Shown here: in pieces, positions 28,388 through 35,830 of the stretch
Layout of the letters: each line of letters starts with the position of its first letter
Numbering within the stretch: the first letter of the stretch is position 1
Assembly: GCF_900109575.1 (NCBI RefSeq)
Contig: NZ_FOAF01000009.1
Location: 124,001 to 188,000 of the forward strand
From: Olivibacter domesticus
Lineage (GTDB): Bacteria; Bacteroidota; Bacteroidia; Sphingobacteriales; Sphingobacteriaceae
DNA: 64,000 bases
Direction of reading: 5' to 3'
Translations under genes and position numbers: made by a program
Notes under the pieces: model-generated
What the model was told of the DNA's origin: nothing
Databases searched by the model: none
Seen by the model: only the letters and a program-made list of their open reading frames with translations

Positions 28388-28406
28388 TAATTCACACAAT
28401 TATTAC

Positions 28407-28437
28407 TTGCAATGTAGGTGCATTAATAATATCTTTG
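28407..28437 (+). promoter_or_regulatory. Promoter of the left metal-uptake unit, within an imperfect inverted repeat
   Basis: TTG (28407-28409), a 20-base spacer and TATCTTTG (28430-28437) match the Bacteroidota -33/-7 consensus. The start would be near 28444, just before ATG 28455. TATTACTTGCA (28401-28411) and TGCATTAATA, about 9 bases on, form an imperfect inverted repeat between the two elements, a plausible metalloregulator operator. Confidence 0.7.
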
Positions 28438-28454
28438 CAACAAATGGAGTGAGG

Positions 28455-28802
28455 ATGATAAGAAATCTACTTATTAAAACATGCACCTATAGGCTTTTTG
28501 CGTTCTGCCTTCTTGTAACCTTCTGTTACATACAGGGCGTACAGCTTATGCATGCTTATCATCATCAAGACTCGCTTATACAGCTCGATAAAGATTTAAC
28601 ATCGCTTGACACCAAAAAAGAGATAAATTGTAAGATTTGTGACTATTTAGTTGTTAAACAAGCACAACAGCTACCAGCACAGCTATTTACGCTGAGCGAA
28701 GTGTACAGAAGCAAGCCAGTTTTAATACAAAGACTGGATACCGCTCAACCTTTTGAAATCACTTTATCCAGTTATCTGAATAAAGGCCCACCTTTAGTAT
28801 AA
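28455..28802 (+). CDS. Small YHH/CxIC/GPP-tail membrane or periplasmic protein
   Basis: A 115-aa protein with an N-terminal hydrophobic signal or TM segment (RLFAFCLLVTFCYIQGVQL, about residues 13-31), then HAYHHQ, a CKIC pair (about residues 59-62) and the C-terminal end NKGPPLV. The same layout is seen in the protein at 35235-35585. His/Cys motifs with a terminal GPP recall small metal-associated DUF2946-like proteins; this is a resemblance, not an assignment. A TTG start at 28407 overlaps the promoter, so ATG 28455 is chosen. It is the first gene of the receptor/lipoprotein unit and probably helps metal handling. Confidence 0.65.
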   Translation: MIRNLLIKTCTYRLFAFCLLVTFCYIQGVQLMHAYHHQDSLIQLDKDLTSLDTKKEINCKICDYLVVKQAQQLPAQLFTLSEVYRSKPVLIQRLDTAQPFEITLSSYLNKGPPLV

Positions 28803-28951
28803 ATTACCCTGTTTTTAACGACGCATAGCCGCTCTGAAGCTCTTTTTCACCTAAAGAGTGATTATAGATCGTTTTGAACAATGATGCTTTTACCAGGTAA
28901 AATTCATCCTACGTTTTGATAACCTTCAAAACAGTTTAATCCATATATAAC

Positions 28952-31309
28952 ATGTTTAATAAAAAACAGCTTGGCCTGTTTGTATTGCTATTCGGTATAG
29001 CAACAGGTTTTGCCCAAAGCAATGATTGTAATTTTATGATTAGCGGACGTGTAACTGACGGAGATACTCAGCTGCCTTTATCAGGAGTATCTGTCACCAT
29101 AATGCCGGGCAATCGTTCTATCAAAACAGACGGGCATGGCTTTTATCGCTCGCAATCACTGTGCAAAGGTACATACACCCTCACTTTTAAAAGTTTAGGT
29201 TTTGAGAATAAGGTGCTGCAATTAGATCTGAAAAAAAATGAAACCCTTAATGTTTCGATGCAACATGGGAACATCGTGTTGCATGATGTAGAGGTTGTAG
29301 GCCATAAACCAGTACATCGCTCTACCGCTAGAACCACTACACTCAACAGTGAACAATTGGAAGAAAGTCGTGGAGCGGTACTGGGCGACGCGCTATCTAA
29401 AATTGCAGGTGTAAGCACACTTAAAACAGGTAATTCTATTGTTAAACCCGTAATTAATGGCATGCATAGCAACCGGGTATTAATACTAAATAACGGCATC
29501 CGTCAGGAAGGCCAGCAATGGGGAAGCGAGCATGCACCGGAGATAGATCCTTTTATTGCGAAAGAACTTACCGTAATAAAGGGTGCTGAAGGCGTGCGCT
29601 ATGGGGCAGATGCGCTCGGTGGAGTAGTGATGGTAAGTCCAGCCCCACTTCAGATTGACGGACCGCTCAGCGGCGAGGTAAATATAGTGGGGGCAAGCAA
29701 TGGACGTATAGGTACAGCGGCGGCTACGCTTAATGGGAGTATCCAAGGAATAAAAGGTTTTGGTTGGCGCGCCCAGGGCTCGATAAAAAAAGGTGGAAAC
29801 ATTAAATCTGCCGACTATTATTTGGGTAATACGGGGGTTAATGAACTGAATTTTTCGGGAGCAATCGCCTATAATACAACTTCTACAAAGTATGAACTTT
29901 ATTACAGTCACTTTAATACGGAATTAGGCATATTAGAAAGCTCCCATATAGGTACTGTAGAAGATATCCAAGCGAGAATAGCCTATGGACGGCCATTTGA
30001 AAAATATGATTTCACCTATAGCATTAAGCCGCCCAGGCAACGGGTGACACACGACTTAGCTAAGCTCAAAGCGCATAAAGATTTAGATAATGGTGCTTCT
30101 TTAGATGTTCAATATGCTTTTCAACGGAATCATAGACAGGAATTCGATTTAAGGAGAAACGCGGCGGACGACAAGAAGCCTATGATGGATCTGGTGCTAA
30201 CCACCCAATCTCTTGATGTTACCTACGATCATTTGCATGAAAATGGTTTGCGTAGCCTATTTGGCATAAATGGACTGATGCAAATAAATAATAACACGCC
30301 AGGCACTGGAACAACACCCTTGATTCCCAATTATGACAGCTATAATATTGGTGTCTTTGCTGTAGAAAGGCTTATTAAGCGTAACTATGAACTGGAAGCC
30401 GGCCTTAGGTATGACTTTAAATATTTTGATGCAGCGGGCTACCGCTATGATTATTCTCAATTTAATGAAAATGGGGGTTTGGATCTTAATTATTTCACTG
30501 GCACCAGACGCTTCCATAATATTTCAGGATCAATTGGTGCTGTGTGGCATCTTACATCACAACTAGATCTACGTAGTAACCTTGGCCTAGCTTGGCGAGC
30601 ACCTAGTGCCAATGAACTCAATAGTGATGGCTTGCACCATGGAGCAGCAATCTATGAAGTAGGAAACCCGGACATGAAGAGCGAACAAGGCTATAAATGG
30701 GTTAACTCTCTTTCTTACAACACCCCAAAGCTAACTGTTAACCTCGACATTTACGGGCAATATGTCAGCAATTATATCTATGCACAACCGAATCCAGATA
30801 GTGTTAGAAGAACTATTAGGGGCACTTTTCCGGTCTTTGTATATGAACAAACAAATGCCTCTTTCTGGGGTATAGACTTCAGTGGTTCGTATGCGCTTAC
30901 CAATCAGCTCACTTATTCGGCGAATATTGCAATTGTACGGGCAAAAGACGAGCGCAATGGAACCTATTTACCCTATATTCCGGGTGATAGAATAGACCAT
31001 AATCTACGCTGGAGCTTCACAGATAACAACGGCCATTGGAGTAAGCCTTTTTTACAGATTGGGCATCGCTTCGTGGCGAAACAAACGCGCTATCAGGAAG
31101 ATTCAGATTATACTTCTCCACCCCCTTCTTACCATCTATTTGATGCAGTGGCAGGCATTAAATACCGAATGGCTAAGCAATCGTTAGGACTAAATATATC
31201 GGTAGATAACCTGACAAATAACTTATACAAAGAATACATGAACCGATTTAGATACTATGCCCATGAGATGGGTAGAAATATAACGGTAAGGCTTTTCTAT
31301 AACTTTTAA
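28952..31309 (+). CDS. TonB-dependent receptor, probable metal importer
   Basis: Outer-membrane TonB-dependent transporter. Signal peptide (residues 1-21), carboxypeptidase-regulatory-like domain (about 28-110), plug (about 120-230, with NNGIRQEGQQWGSEHAPEID and GVRYGADALGGVV) and a 22-strand-type barrel ending NITVRLFYNF. At 785 aa it is the size of metal/siderophore receptors, not SusC. The GQQWGxEH plug motif is shared with the receptor at 32837-35140 and could provide metal-ligating His. The neighbours are a small CxIC protein and His-rich lipoproteins, which point to a transition metal; zinc (ZnuD-like) or copper are the best guesses. Confidence 0.9.
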   Translation: MFNKKQLGLFVLLFGIATGFAQSNDCNFMISGRVTDGDTQLPLSGVSVTIMPGNRSIKTDGHGFYRSQSLCKGTYTLTFKSLGFENKVLQLDLKKNETLNVSMQHGNIVLHDVEVVGHKPVHRSTARTTTLNSEQLEESRGAVLGDALSKIAGVSTLKTGNSIVKPVINGMHSNRVLILNNGIRQEGQQWGSEHAPEIDPFIAKELTVIKGAEGVRYGADALGGVVMVSPAPLQIDGPLSGEVNIVGASNGRIGTAAATLNGSIQGIKGFGWRAQGSIKKGGNIKSADYYLGNTGVNELNFSGAIAYNTTSTKYELYYSHFNTELGILESSHIGTVEDIQARIAYGRPFEKYDFTYSIKPPRQRVTHDLAKLKAHKDLDNGASLDVQYAFQRNHRQEFDLRRNAADDKKPMMDLVLTTQSLDVTYDHLHENGLRSLFGINGLMQINNNTPGTGTTPLIPNYDSYNIGVFAVERLIKRNYELEAGLRYDFKYFDAAGYRYDYSQFNENGGLDLNYFTGTRRFHNISGSIGAVWHLTSQLDLRSNLGLAWRAPSANELNSDGLHHGAAIYEVGNPDMKSEQGYKWVNSLSYNTPKLTVNLDIYGQYVSNYIYAQPNPDSVRRTIRGTFPVFVYEQTNASFWGIDFSGSYALTNQLTYSANIAIVRAKDERNGTYLPYIPGDRIDHNLRWSFTDNNGHWSKPFLQIGHRFVAKQTRYQEDSDYTSPPPSYHLFDAVAGIKYRMAKQSLGLNISVDNLTNNLYKEYMNRFRYYAHEMGRNITVRLFYNF

Positions 31310-31329
31310 CAAATTAAATAATTATTACT

Positions 31330-31977
31330 ATGAACAAATTACGTAACTATTTTTCTTTTGTGCTGATAGCAGCGAGTGCCATGGCTTTCACTGCCTGTTC
31401 CAAAGATGACCCTATTCCTGAACAAGACCAGGAAGAGGTAGGAAAAACTTTGATTTTGCTTGAAGAGGTAGATTGGCATGGTGATTTCCGAACAGGCCAT
31501 TCCCATGCTATTGACGGAGCTAAAATTGACACCATATCTTTTGATGAAAAAGGCCTTCCACCGGTGGGTTTTCACTTGCATCTAACTGAGGGAAAATCAT
31601 ATAAAATGAGCTTGATAGCTTATGATTTTGCTGGCAGGGAACTCCAACAAACATTCTTAGACCGTGCAGACATTCATCAAGTAGTTATTTTGGGAGCTCC
31701 AGACGGTATATTGGATTATACGTATGGCGATGCTGATAATGCACAGGTTGGCGTAACAGGTTATCTACATGTATTAGAAGTTGCGCCTACTTTCACCTTG
31801 CAATACCTCTTACGTCATTTAAATGAAGGGGTGAAAGCGGGATTGACAGCGGAAGACTGGAACAATAAAGATTATCAAAGTAAGTTTGCTGGAGCAACCG
31901 ATCTTGATCTGAAATTTGAAATACACCCGGTTGAAGGTGACGGTCATGTGCACGAAGAAGGCGAGCACGATCATTAA
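31330..31977 (+). CDS. His-rich surface/periplasmic lipoprotein A
   Basis: Probable metal-binding lipoprotein of an unnamed family. The signal ends with lipobox FTA-Cys23, followed by SKDD, a common Bacteroidota surface-export start. His clusters: H50, H57, H59 (DWHGDF...GHSHA), FHLHL at 82-84, and a C-terminal tail HVHEEGEHDH. The 215-aa body aligns with the next gene (GREL/GREI block, YGDA/YGDG, YLLRHLNEG/YVLRKLSDA, DWNNKDYQSKFAG/DWNHDDYASRFAG). It lies 20 bases after the receptor, so the two are one operon. A role in capturing metal for the receptor is inferred. Confidence 0.75.
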   Translation: MNKLRNYFSFVLIAASAMAFTACSKDDPIPEQDQEEVGKTLILLEEVDWHGDFRTGHSHAIDGAKIDTISFDEKGLPPVGFHLHLTEGKSYKMSLIAYDFAGRELQQTFLDRADIHQVVILGAPDGILDYTYGDADNAQVGVTGYLHVLEVAPTFTLQYLLRHLNEGVKAGLTAEDWNNKDYQSKFAGATDLDLKFEIHPVEGDGHVHEEGEHDH

Positions 31978-31999
31978 GAAAAGACTTACATAAAATAGT

Positions 32000-32028
32000 A
32001 GAACCCTGCTCTGGCCAATCAGGGTTCT
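32000..32028 (+). terminator. Hairpin between the two His-rich lipoprotein genes
   Basis: AGAACCCTG (32000-32008) pairs with CAGGGTTCT (32020-32028): a 9-bp stem with an 11-base loop. The T tail is interrupted (TCATGCCTTT), so it may be partial, allowing graded expression of the second lipoprotein gene. Confidence 0.55.
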
Positions 32029-32081
32029 TCATGCCTTTATACTTTCATTTTAATTACATTTTTAACTTTTAAATACAATTT

Positions 32082-32780
32082 ATGAAACATTTAAGAAACT
32101 ATTCTTTTGCACTTATTGCTTTTGCCCTTTTATTTAATGCTTGTAGCAAAGATGATGACAACAATATCACACCTGATGATCCAAATGCCATCGCTTCATC
32201 TCGCTTAGATTTTATAGAAGTTAATGGACACCCGCATGGGGATCATTTTCATGATCTGGCAGAGATTGAGGGTGAGAGGGAAAGTATTTCCATAACGTTT
32301 GACAATCAAGGTGTAGCCCAAAACGGCCATACACATTTAGATCCGCATAAAATTTACAGAATACAGTTACATGTTTTCAATAACGAGGGAAGAGAAATAC
32401 AGGACGACTTCCTTGCTAGCAAAGCGGTGGCCGACCTATATAAATCTTTTATCGTAGGTGGAAACTTCGTACTAAACCCTAACACCAATGGTGCAGAGAA
32501 TGGTGCGCTTTTCCAACCTAGAGAACAAACGTACGGTGATGGGAATGCGGTAAACGGAAAGTACGAGACAACCGGCATTTTGGCATACTTTACTTTAGGA
32601 GAAGCCAATGAAGGTGCCGAAGCAGACGTATCTTACGTGCTACGCAAATTGAGCGATGCTACTACAAAAGCGAAAATTGAACGTACTGACTGGAACCATG
32701 ATGACTATGCTAGCCGTTTTGCTGGTGAGGACGTATTGAAATTGACTTTCGAAATTCATGCGGAGGGGCATGACCATTAA
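32082..32780 (+). CDS. His-rich surface/periplasmic lipoprotein B
   Basis: Paralogue of the preceding gene: lipobox FNA-Cys21 and SKDDD start, then a dense His cluster NGHPHGDHFHD (H50, H52, H55, H57), NGHTHLDPHK (H83, H85, H89) and a C-terminal EGHDH. At 232 aa it is 17 longer than A. The body shows the same DWNHDDYASRFAG block and the same ending (LKLTFEIHAEGHDH against LKFEIHPVEGDG). It probably arose by tandem duplication. It is the last rightward gene of the unit, closed by a bidirectional-type hairpin before the convergent receptor. Metal identity unknown. Confidence 0.75.
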   Translation: MKHLRNYSFALIAFALLFNACSKDDDNNITPDDPNAIASSRLDFIEVNGHPHGDHFHDLAEIEGERESISITFDNQGVAQNGHTHLDPHKIYRIQLHVFNNEGREIQDDFLASKAVADLYKSFIVGGNFVLNPNTNGAENGALFQPREQTYGDGNAVNGKYETTGILAYFTLGEANEGAEADVSYVLRKLSDATTKAKIERTDWNHDDYASRFAGEDVLKLTFEIHAEGHDH

Positions 32781-32797
32781 GGAAGGTTATAAATAGT

Positions 32798-32837
32798 AAT
32801 AGCCTGATGGGCACACACCTATCAGGCTATTATTTTC
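32798..32837 (+). terminator. Terminator between convergent metal-uptake units
   Basis: AATAGCCTGAT (32798-32808) pairs perfectly with ATCAGGCTATT (32821-32831), followed by ATTTTC. It sits between the lipoprotein B stop and the convergent receptor stop at 32837 and could serve both directions. Confidence 0.82.
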
Positions 32838-35140
32838 TAACTACTATGTTTTAATATAAATGGAACATATACGCCAAAGGTGATGTTCCTTCCCGGATTG
32901 TAAATTCCGAGACTCAAATCTGTTTGGTCTAGTCTACCCGGTTTATACCGGCTCAGCGCATCGTAATACTTCTTATTCAGTAAATTATTCCCTGAAATAT
33001 ATATTTTTATAAGTTGCTTTCCGGCAAAGAAGGTAGCACCAACACTAGCGTTTAACAAGGTGTAACCTGCTGTAGGTGTTTCGAACTCTTCATCTACCCT
33101 ATTCTGCTTAAAATAATTTGCTATACCGACAGATACAAAAGGTTCTTGCACGTGCTGAATCTCCGGTTCGTATCGCAACTCATTGCGCAGTACGCCCGCA
33201 GGGATAAATGATAAAGGCCTATCGAGGCTTGTATTCTGCGCATGTGTGTAACCAAAGGTATTTTCAAAATGGATAAAATGCACGGGATGCAAAACTAGGC
33301 TGGCTTCTGCTCCATATAAATTAGCATTCACCTGACCATAATTATATACGGGTAAGTCATCAATAAATTCACCATGATGGGCAGCATATATAAAATCGTG
33401 AATATAATTATTATAAATACTGGCGCTGGCATTGATGATATCTCCATCATAAGCCAACTCAGCATCCACCTGATAACTTCTCTCTGGTTGCAGATTTGAA
33501 TTTCCAATCTCATACCTGAAGGTGCCTTCGTGTTCACCATTAGAGCCTAGCTCTGCGGGATTTGGTGCCCGAAAAGCTGAACCTATATTGGTTTTAAAAT
33601 TTAGCTTTTCTGTAAACTTATGGGTGAAGCCTAATGCACCACTTATATTGGAAAACTGATTATGAAACGCCTCAAACAATGGTTCTCCGTCTGCTATTAA
33701 GGATTTGCCTACATTTTTACGAAAATCATACCGAACACCCATATTAAAGGTGCTATGCTCCCAGTTCTTTTTGAGGTAGGCAAATGCTCCAACACCATAA
33801 GTATCATAAGCAGGAATCAAAAATTCCTCCCCTCTATTTTCACTATGTCCAATCTCCGTGCTTGCACCGAAAACCGGCTCCCAGCCATTTTTCTGTCCAA
33901 TATAATAGCGAGCATCTCCTGTGTAAGTATTTAGGTTAAAGAATAACGATGGATCGGGACCGTCTTCTAATTCCCGCCGTTGATTTTTCTGGTAACCTAA
34001 ATCGAGCTTTAAGTTACCAGAGCCAATAACAAAATTATTATTCAGTGATATTTTATAATGTCGAATATCTTGCTTTGGATACAGTAAACTGCGATTTTTT
34101 AAATCGTCCTTGCTAAATAGCCCACCATCTTCGTCTACATAGTTTCCCTGATCATCAAATGAAGGTTCGTAAAAACCTATATTATTTCTGAAGCTAGAAA
34201 AATTAAGGTGTGAGTACCCCCAGGATTTATTCAAGCCGATCATACCACTGAAGTCTGTTTCGTTGAATCCAGAATTTGGAAAATAACCGGTAGGTGTTTT
34301 AAATGAGTAGGCGTTTTTGTAGGTCCCCCGCCCTCGCCAAACGATACCATTCTGATTTCCGGTTAACATAAGGGAGCTACTCGTTAAACCATTATTGCTT
34401 GAATAATTGCTTAGAAATTCACCACTGATTTCGCCCTCTGGCACCGGAATCGGTTCTAGTAGATTTATAACACCCCCAAGCGCATCGGAACCGTATATTA
34501 AAGACGCAGCACCTTTTAATACCTCTACTCTATTCGCTTTAAACTGGTCGATCTCTATGCCGTGCTCATCACCCCATTGTTGCCCCTCTTGTTTAATACC
34601 ATTGTCGATCGTTACAACTCTGTTATAGCTTAAGCCTCTAATAACAGGCTTTGATATGGACGGCCCTGTGGACACCTGCGATATGCCTGGACTTTTAGCC
34701 AAGGCATCAATAATATTAGATGATGGCAGCAATAATTTATCTTTGTTGATAATATTTACAGATGTACTGTTCCGTTTATTGCTTCCTGATGAGATGGTTC
34801 CGGTAATCACCACTTCACGTGTTTCAATAAGGGTAGGTTTTAAAGCAAACTCCCAATCAGTATCTTTTGATAAATCGACAGTTTTAGTAACCGTTTCATA
34901 TCCTATAAATCGTATTTCTACAAGAAACTGTCCTTTAGCTGGAACACTCCTTAGTTTAAACGTGCCCGACTGGTCCGCATTAACAGATATCCTTAAATCG
35001 GGAATCGTCACCGTAGCTCCTGGCAGTGGCTTACCAGTTTGAATATCTATAACTTTTCCGGATACAACAGCAAGTTCACCGGAAAACACATTACTGACAA
35101 ACGCTAATAACACGGTCAGCACTATAATAATCTTTTGCAT
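32837..35140 (-). CDS. TonB-dependent receptor, second probable metal importer
   Basis: Outer-membrane receptor related to the one at 28952-31309. Signal peptide MQKIIIVLTVLLAFVSNVFSG, carboxypeptidase-regulatory-like domain (about residues 22-110), plug with DNGIKQEGQQWGDEHGIEID and LIYGSDALGGVINL, and a beta-barrel to the C-terminus. The frame is open from 35305, but the first 55 codons are not signal-like, so ATG 35140 is used (767 aa). A 116-aa YHHH/CxIC/GPP protein lies upstream on the same strand, mirroring the left unit. It shares the GQQWGxEH motif, so it probably transports the same or a related metal. Confidence 0.9.
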   Translation of the reverse strand: MQKIIIVLTVLLAFVSNVFSGELAVVSGKVIDIQTGKPLPGATVTIPDLRISVNADQSGTFKLRSVPAKGQFLVEIRFIGYETVTKTVDLSKDTDWEFALKPTLIETREVVITGTISSGSNKRNSTSVNIINKDKLLLPSSNIIDALAKSPGISQVSTGPSISKPVIRGLSYNRVVTIDNGIKQEGQQWGDEHGIEIDQFKANRVEVLKGAASLIYGSDALGGVINLLEPIPVPEGEISGEFLSNYSSNNGLTSSSLMLTGNQNGIVWRGRGTYKNAYSFKTPTGYFPNSGFNETDFSGMIGLNKSWGYSHLNFSSFRNNIGFYEPSFDDQGNYVDEDGGLFSKDDLKNRSLLYPKQDIRHYKISLNNNFVIGSGNLKLDLGYQKNQRRELEDGPDPSLFFNLNTYTGDARYYIGQKNGWEPVFGASTEIGHSENRGEEFLIPAYDTYGVGAFAYLKKNWEHSTFNMGVRYDFRKNVGKSLIADGEPLFEAFHNQFSNISGALGFTHKFTEKLNFKTNIGSAFRAPNPAELGSNGEHEGTFRYEIGNSNLQPERSYQVDAELAYDGDIINASASIYNNYIHDFIYAAHHGEFIDDLPVYNYGQVNANLYGAEASLVLHPVHFIHFENTFGYTHAQNTSLDRPLSFIPAGVLRNELRYEPEIQHVQEPFVSVGIANYFKQNRVDEEFETPTAGYTLLNASVGATFFAGKQLIKIYISGNNLLNKKYYDALSRYKPGRLDQTDLSLGIYNPGRNITFGVYVPFILKHSS

Positions 35141-35234
35141 GAATAAATAATTAACAGCCAAATGCTGTAAATGGATAGAGAAAATTACCTGGTCGCTTAA
35201 AAACAACCTAGGCAAATGGATTTGAAAGAAAAGA

Positions 35235-35585
35235 TTATAGTGCGAAAGGGGGCCCTCGGGATGTAATATCGAGAACGGCCATTTGGAAAAAAAAGCGTAT
35301 TTCATTAAAAAATCTAAAAACTACGCTTTCTAAAGGATTTATCTCAAAATTTATTTGAGCTAAATCATATTTCTTGTCGAAATGTATGTTACAGATCAAA
35401 CAATAAGAAGAAAGGCTTACTGTTCGTTCCGGATGTTGGTTATTGGAATAAGAAAACCCTTTTATGCGAAGGGGGGTAAAAAGGTTATGATGATGATAAA
35501 AATCTACAGGAACAACGGCCAACATAAAATACAAAAGCATCAGCTTTGCAAATGTTGAAACGACTATTCCTTTTTGATTTAACAT
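35235..35585 (-). CDS. Small YHHH/CxIC/GPP-tail membrane or periplasmic protein
   Basis: A 116-aa protein with an N-terminal hydrophobic segment (AKLMLLYFMLAVVPVDF, about residues 13-29), YHHHN (about 30-34), a CLIC pair (about 62-65) and the end SRGPPFAL. It has the same order of motifs and nearly the same length as the product of 28455-28802, although the residues between motifs differ. It precedes a GQQWGxEH TonB receptor, as the left copy does. Its ATG lies about 40 bases after a leader terminator, suggesting control by attenuation. Function unknown; metal handling inferred. Confidence 0.65.
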   Translation of the reverse strand: MLNQKGIVVSTFAKLMLLYFMLAVVPVDFYHHHNLFTPLRIKGFSYSNNQHPERTVSLSSYCLICNIHFDKKYDLAQINFEINPLESVVFRFFNEIRFFFQMAVLDITSRGPPFAL

Positions 35586-35627
35586 GCTAGAAGAATGAAG
35601 GTACTATTACAAAATTTTGTAAGTCTT

Positions 35628-35658
35628 AAAAAAGGGTCGGATACGAGTACCCGACCCT
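35628..35658 (-). terminator. Intrinsic terminator in the leader of the right metal-uptake unit
   Basis: On the minus strand AGGGTCGG pairs with CCGACCCT (35633-35640 with 35651-35658; the loop can form a further 3-bp stem), followed by a T6 run (35633-35628). No gene on this strand ends here: the nearest plus-strand gene starts at 35831. It ends a short RNA or acts as an attenuator. Confidence 0.8.
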
Positions 35659-35692
35659 ACATCTACCTATGAAAAACATGCCTTAAGCAAGG
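35628..35692 (-). ncRNA. Candidate leader RNA or sRNA of about 65 nt
   Basis: It is bounded by a consensus promoter (TTTG/TATTTTTG, 35728-35698) and an intrinsic terminator (35658-35628). The 5' part can form a hairpin with arms ATGCCTT/AAGGCAT (35678-35695, loop of 4). No reading frame of note lies within it. It ends about 40 bases before the 116-aa protein gene, so it is either a cis-attenuator of the metal-uptake genes or an independent sRNA. No known riboswitch class is recognised. Confidence 0.5.
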
Positions 35693-35697
35693 CATTA

Positions 35698-35728
35698 CAA
35701 AAATAAGGCATTATATTTACATCGCAAA
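35698..35728 (-). promoter_or_regulatory. Promoter with operator-like repeats upstream of the right metal-uptake unit
   Basis: On the minus strand TTTG (35728-35725), a 19-base spacer and TATTTTTG (35705-35698) fit the Bacteroidota consensus exactly. Two direct copies of TAATGCCTT (35713-35705 and 35698-35690) flank the -7 element, and an inverted AAGGCAT follows. This spacing suggests a repressor site, plausibly a metal sensor. Confidence 0.72.
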
Positions 35729-35830
35729 CAAAATCTTGCCTTATAATGAAAATAATTTTAATTATAGAGTGTTTTGTAATAATGATTTTTATAGTAGGTT
35801 TGCAAAATAGATTAAATTGAAGCGTTTAAA

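Follow-up and report, generated by a model that had tools for sequence, protein, structure and literature searches.

A mirror-image pair of TonB-receptor operons in Olivibacter domesticus, each with a candidate metal-sensing arrest peptide at its head: a proposed zinc-acquisition locus

In a stretch of 64,000 nucleotides (nt) of the Olivibacter domesticus genome (assembly GCF_900109575.1, contig NZ_FOAF01000009.1, positions 124,001 to 188,000), here called the window, two sets of genes converge as mirror images of each other, as the initial annotation had recognized (Table 1). Each arm starts with a small open reading frame (ORF) that contains CxIC and ends in a GPP tail, followed by a gene for a TonB-dependent receptor with the motif GQQWGxEH. 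The two receptors are indeed related (30% identity over 778 columns, E 2e-94), and the two His-rich lipoproteins encoded in the left arm are paralogues (35% identity, E 4e-26). A hairpin lies between the converging arms, at 32795-32834 rather than at the 32798-32837 given earlier; its folding energy is -25.2 kcal/mol (z -7.4), none of 200 shuffles folded equally well, and it is probably a two-way terminator.

The small ORFs, hereafter called upstream ORFs (uORFs), both specify a hydrophobic N-terminus, clustered His residues and the CxIC, with tails NKGPPLV (left; KGPP class) and SRGPPFAL (right; RGPP class), and scans of Pfam and NCBIfam provided a name for neither. That they are alike, as had been claimed, is not apparent from BLASTP (no match; best E 1.0) and emerges from a comparison of family profiles (probability 96, E 2.3e-9), by which the two classes are related. 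For the left uORF we chose the ATG at 28455 (the ORF list begins at a TTG, 28407), and for the right receptor a start at MQKIII (the list begins at 35305, within the right uORF). Of the four other genomes of the genus, two have the complete mirror arrangement (L109, Olivibacter jilunii, Sphingobacteriaceae; and L110), while L111 has kept the left arm, with one lipoprotein, and in G037 a relative of the left uORF was the only part found.

Table 1. Features of the mirror-image locus, in window coordinates
Feature	Position	Strand	Remarks
Palindromic promoter box TTGCAATGTAGGTGCAT	28407..28423	+	candidate Zur site; 15.0 bits with matrix from zinc-gene promoters
TATCTTTG	28430..28437	+	matches TAnnTTTG
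Left uORF	28455..28802	+	115 amino acids, KGPP class; CxIC codons 28629-28640; KGPP codons 28782-28793; spacing 47
Left TonB-dependent receptor	28952..31309	+	GQQWGSEH; ZnuD the best solved match
His-rich lipoprotein 1	31330..31977	+	
His-rich lipoprotein 2	32082..32780	+	beta-sandwich model, mean pLDDT (predicted local distance difference test) 85.6
Hairpin between converging arms	32795..32834	.	from folding
Right TonB-dependent receptor	32837..35140	-	GQQWGDEH; ZnuD the best solved match
Right uORF	35235..35585	-	116 amino acids, RGPP class; RGPP codons 35247-35258; CxIC codons 35391-35402; spacing 44
Small-RNA-like element	35627..35705	-	see text

Relatives of the right uORF were found in 56, and of the left uORF in 22, of 151 genomes of the family, and 57 loci from this survey were read (30 of the RGPP class and 27 of the KGPP class). 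CxxC and the terminal motif are separated by a nearly invariant distance: 43 residues at 27 RGPP-class loci and 44 at the three from the window's genus (together 30/30), and 47 at 26 of the 27 KGPP-class loci (L056, which has no tail, was left out of the class alignment and of one spacing count). Alignments were made without near-duplicates, from 23 of the 30 RGPP-class loci and 25 of the 27 KGPP-class loci (L056 and one near-duplicate being omitted), and the 25 KGPP-class proteins show no gap between CxxC and NKGPP. The linker so fixed in length is free in sequence, with a mean identity of 32% in the RGPP class and 24% in the KGPP class, and CxxC follows the first His pair at distances that vary from 17 to 60. 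The motif lies two to five residues from the C-terminus at 55 of the 56 family loci with CxxC, and departs from its class in a few cases (RAPP in L020, RGPP in L051, KAPP in L045); a conserved His stands beside Cys in both class alignments. Since the Arg, Gly and Pro codons of the motif show synonymous variation, it is the peptide, not the RNA, that is selected. A search of the genome itself with the right uORF gave a single other match (E 0.75). Pfam family DUF6769 was considered as a home for these proteins and rejected: it matched three of 23 RGPP-class members weakly (best E 0.003), and was found in seven of 198 genomes of the class, that of O. domesticus not among them.

Profile searches across the phylum, which were insensitive, gave matches in 14 and 15 of 395 genomes; 26 of the 32 places were read, the other six already being among the family-survey loci. 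In 20 of the 26, an x[AGS]PP tail follows CxxC by 41-46 residues; three keep an RxPP tail without CxxC, and three are non-members. When uORFs were anchored on the Arg/Lys of the motif (65, cut to 55 non-redundant ones at 60% identity), Cys was found at -47/-48 in 31 of the 32 with CxxC, and also in 21 of the 23 without it, which show HxHC, CxC and similar patterns; the other sampled neighbouring position pairs (-20 to -60) hold Cys in at most two of these 23. The ruler has thus been kept while the ligands have changed.

The co-occurrence that the initial annotation had proposed as a check is clear across Bacteroidota: relatives of the small proteins precede GQQWG receptors, and lipoprotein relatives often follow receptors or uORFs. 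As far as the next ORF was covered, it contains GQQWG at 25 of the 30 RGPP-class and 19 of the 27 KGPP-class loci, the other next genes including ABC (ATP-binding cassette) transporter ATPases, a His-rich lipoprotein and an AztD-like gene. Starting from the receptors instead (the best 80 of 577 matches that were confirmed, in order of similarity to the right receptor), a uORF no shorter than 60 codons, with [RK][AG]PP and up to 11 further residues at its end and no more than 350 nt upstream, precedes 65 of the 80 GQQWG receptors of named genomes, as against two of 422 neighbouring genes (Fisher 2e-64), and one of those two is the left receptor of O. jilunii. The tails of the 65 are RGPP (43), RAPP (20), KGPP (one) and KAPP (one).

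Other neighbours were met with in the course of this reading. In L196 (10547-11827, minus strand), an RGPP-tailed uORF lies 140 nt before the gene for a secreted protein sorted by the type IX secretion system, not a receptor; in L105 (8509-17858), a KGPP-tailed uORF with a spacing of 43 leads an operon for a TonB receptor, an HmuY-family lipoprotein and a CobN-like protein; and in L102-L104 a KGPP uORF stands ahead of an ABC transporter ATPase, DUF3526-type permeases and a TonB-type receptor (L103 adding an AstE/AspA-family protein). A cluster like this last one lies in L232 behind a palindromic box instead of a uORF.

How might such small ORFs act? According to the extracts of the literature used here, CruR has a CxxC, 45 residues, then RAPP three residues from its end, with a TonB gene downstream; the motif is needed for expression and the CxxC for control by copper, and five extra spacer residues spoil regulation (PMC9426467). 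RGPP and RAPP are both described as robust arrest motifs, and TonB-related RAPP/RGPP uORFs as occurring across Gram-negatives (PMC12992588). Both window uORFs carry CxxC and a RAPP-like terminal motif at fixed spacing, with Lys for Arg in the left one, and by ORF order both come first ahead of a TonB gene, the right-arm transcript start being putative. Because of the fixed spacing to an arrest motif, the place before the receptor gene and the published work on CruR, CutF and RGPP uORFs, we hold it to be very probable that the small ORFs are uORFs of the CruR/CutF kind, which regulate their operons, rather than the partners in metal capture that they had been taken for. The locus as a whole we are inclined to see as serving zinc acquisition, through two TonB-receptor operons that would each be led by a metal-sensing arrest peptide.

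In the scheme that we propose, by analogy with CruR, stalling would be relieved by zinc. A ribosome translating the uORF would pause on the arrival of RGPP or KGPP, two to three residues short of the end, at the peptidyl-transferase centre; by then the Cys/His site, about 47-48 residues back, would be just out of the exit tunnel. When zinc is low the pause would persist, and the downstream receptor would be expressed; when zinc is available it might bind the nascent chain and fold or pull it, so freeing the ribosome and cutting off expression of the receptor. The direction of this response is borrowed from CruR. The left arm would have a second zinc switch, at the level of the promoter, in a Zur-type repressor.

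The element TAnnTTTG, the -7 element of Bacteroidota promoters, lies at most 90 nt from the start of 67 of 119 uORFs (8.6 expected from shuffles), which suggests that a uORF is usually the first ORF of its transcript. The TTGCAATGTAGGTGCAT box of the left promoter is conserved wherever else in the genus the left uORF adjoins a left-type receptor (three genomes). With at most one mismatch, it occurs within the genus at the divergent promoter of zigA and a gene that we take to be merC (in three genomes, twice in that of O. domesticus), near an alkaline-phosphatase gene (two genomes), and in the interval that separates an ABC transporter from a Fur-family gene with Zur as its best match, below cut-off (one genome); among the proteins beside these boxes, the ZigA and phosphatase of O. 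domesticus and the Fur-family protein of G037 were scanned. The genus search gave 14 matches, two of them (L235, L236) without a zinc-type gene, as against eight for a reversed control. A matrix was built from seven sites at zinc-type genes, themselves found via a pattern from uORF promoters that included the left one; it reaches 12 bits or more in 33 of 117 uORF promoters (1.5 expected in Markov sequences) and in five of 434 control upstream regions, and without the four genus uORFs, which are not independent of the training, in 29 of 113. By group, the matches comprise 15 of 26 KGPP-class promoters, 18 of 63 found receptor-first, and none of 28 from the RGPP class of Sphingobacteriaceae. Our literature search found no published Bacteroidota Zur box for comparison; a Zur-type repressor is the putative reader of the left-arm box.

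A perfect version of the palindrome, WTGCAACNNNGTTGCAW, is present in 35 of 201 genomes of the order (five for a reversed control), and absent from the genome of O. domesticus, whose sites are imperfect. As a marker specific for zinc the bare palindrome was rejected, since the neighbours of the 30 loci read are mostly not of zinc type: three loci adjoin zinc-type genes (zigA/merC, a Fur-family gene and a His-rich lipoprotein), four adjoin an FAD (flavin adenine dinucleotide) oxidoreductase, 14 are more than 400 nt from any gene start, and the rest adjoin other genes. In the four oxidoreductase cases (L268, L271, L275, L284; identity by reading) the palindrome is near the start of the gene. Promoters of the RGPP class have an element of their own: TGTTAC, often as ATTGTTAC, lies upstream of TAnnTTTG in 15 of 26 non-redundant cases (1.7 expected; for example L005, L006, L014 and L026).

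Metal uptake as the business of the locus, which the initial annotation had proposed, is borne out by the co-occurrence and by the receptors, both of which have ZnuD as their best solved match (57.9 bits for the left and 89.5 for the right), ahead of the copper receptor OprC (42.1 bits, the next best for the left, and 38.7). The NCBIfam model for ZnuD (NF038289, cut-off 950 bits) is reached by neither: the right receptor, for which it is the best match, falls far below with 143.7 bits, and the left scores 103.6. Elsewhere, an RGPP-tailed relative of the uORFs leads a ZigA-like gene (L101; 563 bits, cut-off 600), and a KGPP-tailed one leads an AztD-like gene beside a Fur-family gene (L107; 82 bits, cut-off 400). 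If the uORF reading is granted, zinc is a good deal likelier than copper as the ligand. It is fairly well supported for the left arm; for the right arm it is suggested mainly by the receptor and by relatives of that receptor in L163 and L168 (53% and 51% identical), which have a promoter box of 14.4 bits.

Several observations weigh against the interpretation of the locus as a pair of zinc-sensing, uORF-led operons. The profile of DUF2946 (PF11162), the family of CruR, matched neither window protein and nothing in the genome of O. domesticus, and among the relatives it matched none of 23 in the RGPP class and two of 25 in the KGPP class (best E 0.014). Arrest by KGPP is putative, by analogy, given its Lys in place of Arg, and KGPP is absent from the main text of PMC12992588; for the window uORFs in general, arrest, metal binding and a response in expression are predictions from sequence. 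The right uORF has its nearest TAnnTTTG 112 nt away, where it fits a small-RNA-like gene instead, its promoter has no box (5.4 bits), like all 28 RGPP-class promoters of Sphingobacteriaceae, and TGTTAC is not visible in it. In NCBIfam, the left receptor has heme/hemoglobin as its best match (152.5 bits), above ZnuD, all below cut-off, and the uORF of L105 leads an hmu-type operon, as in hmu heme loci. For 15 of the 80 receptors, the 350 nt upstream contain no such uORF (one of them, L193, has a uORF at 450 nt, and four have a promoter box of at least 16 bits). Finally, C exceeds G over 330 nt in 99% of 121 uORFs, a share that is 34% both among 485 control genes and among 155 signal-like controls, and at four-fold degenerate sites C/(C+G) is 0.516 in uORFs against 0.527. 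The excess is thus due to amino-acid content and gives no evidence of a selected Rho site, so that a CruR-like Rho signature was rejected.

Other explanations have to be set beside this one. The same arrest mechanism might respond to copper, as it does in the CruR of Bordetella, with receptors that import copper: CruR, too, leads a TonB gene, CxxC binds Cu(I), OprC comes next after ZnuD for the left receptor, and the right promoter is without a zinc-type box. We think this unlikely, if worth keeping in mind, given that ZnuD outscores OprC for both receptors, that a copper gene was recognized beside the uORFs in none of the 13 larger regions read out of 20 retrieved, that ZigA-like and AztD-like genes and the box evidence point elsewhere, and that Cu-related RAPP/RGPP uORFs are reported, in the extract of PMC12992588, to be missing in Bacteroidota.

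The small proteins might instead function in the periplasm in mature form, as metal binders or chaperones that cooperate with the receptors, as the initial annotation had it. A linker fixed in length yet free in sequence, a motif so consistently near the end, the placing of the small ORF ahead of the receptor, and the identity of RxPP as a published arrest motif avoided by proteomes (PMC12992588, in part) make this improbable in our judgement, in spite of the hydrophobic start, the His and Cys content and the co-occurrence with receptors, all of which it would explain. Nor do we favour peptides that monitor secretion or oxidative folding in the manner of SecM, with Cys pairs that sense disulfide formation and not metal. 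RAPP/RGPP peptides are reported upstream of sec, DsbA-family and thioredoxin genes (PMC12992588, in part), but what lies downstream here is for the most part receptor and metal genes, and a His beside Cys, or a single-Cys HxHC at the same ruler position, is ill-suited to an internal disulfide; this we rate as very improbable.

The lipoproteins fit the preferred reading, of zinc-acquisition operons under uORF control, as products made with the receptor that probably help to capture the ion or hand it over. Relatives occur in 38 of the 151 genomes, commonly following a receptor, directly following a uORF in L123 and L124, and in L126 with a ZigA-like gene nearby (by reading of the sequence). Twenty aligned lipoproteins have near-invariant His at positions 52, 55, 57, 83 and 226 (numbering of the second lipoprotein), and a search with the confident beta-sandwich model of the second lipoprotein gave no specific known relative.

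Beyond the right uORF lies a small-RNA-like element (Table 1) comprising a TAnnTTTG promoter, a 5' hairpin, the invariant linker ATGTTTTTCATAGGTAGATGTA and a terminator hairpin with a run of T. It has a match in 54 of 61 family genomes (some partial, several in multiple copies, mostly away from this locus). In 13 aligned copies, from 20 loci, four of the 18 pairs are changed on both sides and still paired; there was no match above cut-off in Rfam.

A wider proposal, for which we see about even chances, is that Bacteroidota at large possess a zinc-sensing arrest peptide, with a metal site 47-48 residues before a C-terminal [RK][AG]PP stall and interchangeable ligand sets (CxxC, HxHC or CxC), that would act as a translational zinc switch on outer-membrane zinc receptors, on lipoproteins and on zinc chaperones, in part under a Zur-type switch at the promoter. 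If so, the phylum gains a testable zinc regulon made up of a uORF class, a promoter box, receptors and lipoproteins. The CruR authors, in the part of their paper drawn on here, point out that neither copper nor zinc has a described riboswitch, a gap that in their suggestion is filled by leader sensing based on proteins (PMC9426467); if these uORFs sense zinc, translational metal sensing reaches beyond copper. A fixed ruler with swapped metal ligands would also provide a natural mutational series for the release of a stall by a ligand outside the tunnel.

The kind of system is already known, since CruR, CutF and RGPP uORFs before TonB genes have all been described, and the statement that no named system has this set was too strong, CruR-TonB operons being one. 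In the cutF-cutOG system of Rhodobacter capsulatus, copper raises expression through a stem-loop; CutF-like proteins include Bacteroidota and TonB neighbours, and were collected with a CxnC/PP filter, no zinc branch being named in the extract concerned (PMC9973294). The TonB-related RAPP/RGPP class resembles the window in having a TonB gene preceded by one for a small secreted protein with RGPP close to its C-terminus, and differs in that the extracts give neither a ligand nor a spacing rule for Bacteroidota (PMC12992588; PMC10987492). ZnuD of Neisseria is the best solved match of both receptors, which differ from it in having an N-terminal CarboxypepD_reg-like domain. CrtA/BfrG is described as a family of copper receptors, over 40% of whose loci include cruR (PMC12914433, in part), and it is the CruR-BfrG/CrtA operon of Bordetella pertussis that comes closest, with an exported small uORF, a CxxC, a near-terminal motif and a TonB receptor gene next. 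Its spacing of 45 residues compares with 47 (left) and 44 (right) in the window, its three residues after the motif with two and three, and its 162 nt from uORF to TonB gene with 149 and 94. CruR answers to copper and is DUF2946 by Pfam, whereas the window uORFs have R/KGPP and are Pfam-negative; and, unlike the CruR operon, the window has receptors closest to ZnuD, a zinc-gene box in its left arm, and lipoproteins in place of the PepSY protein.

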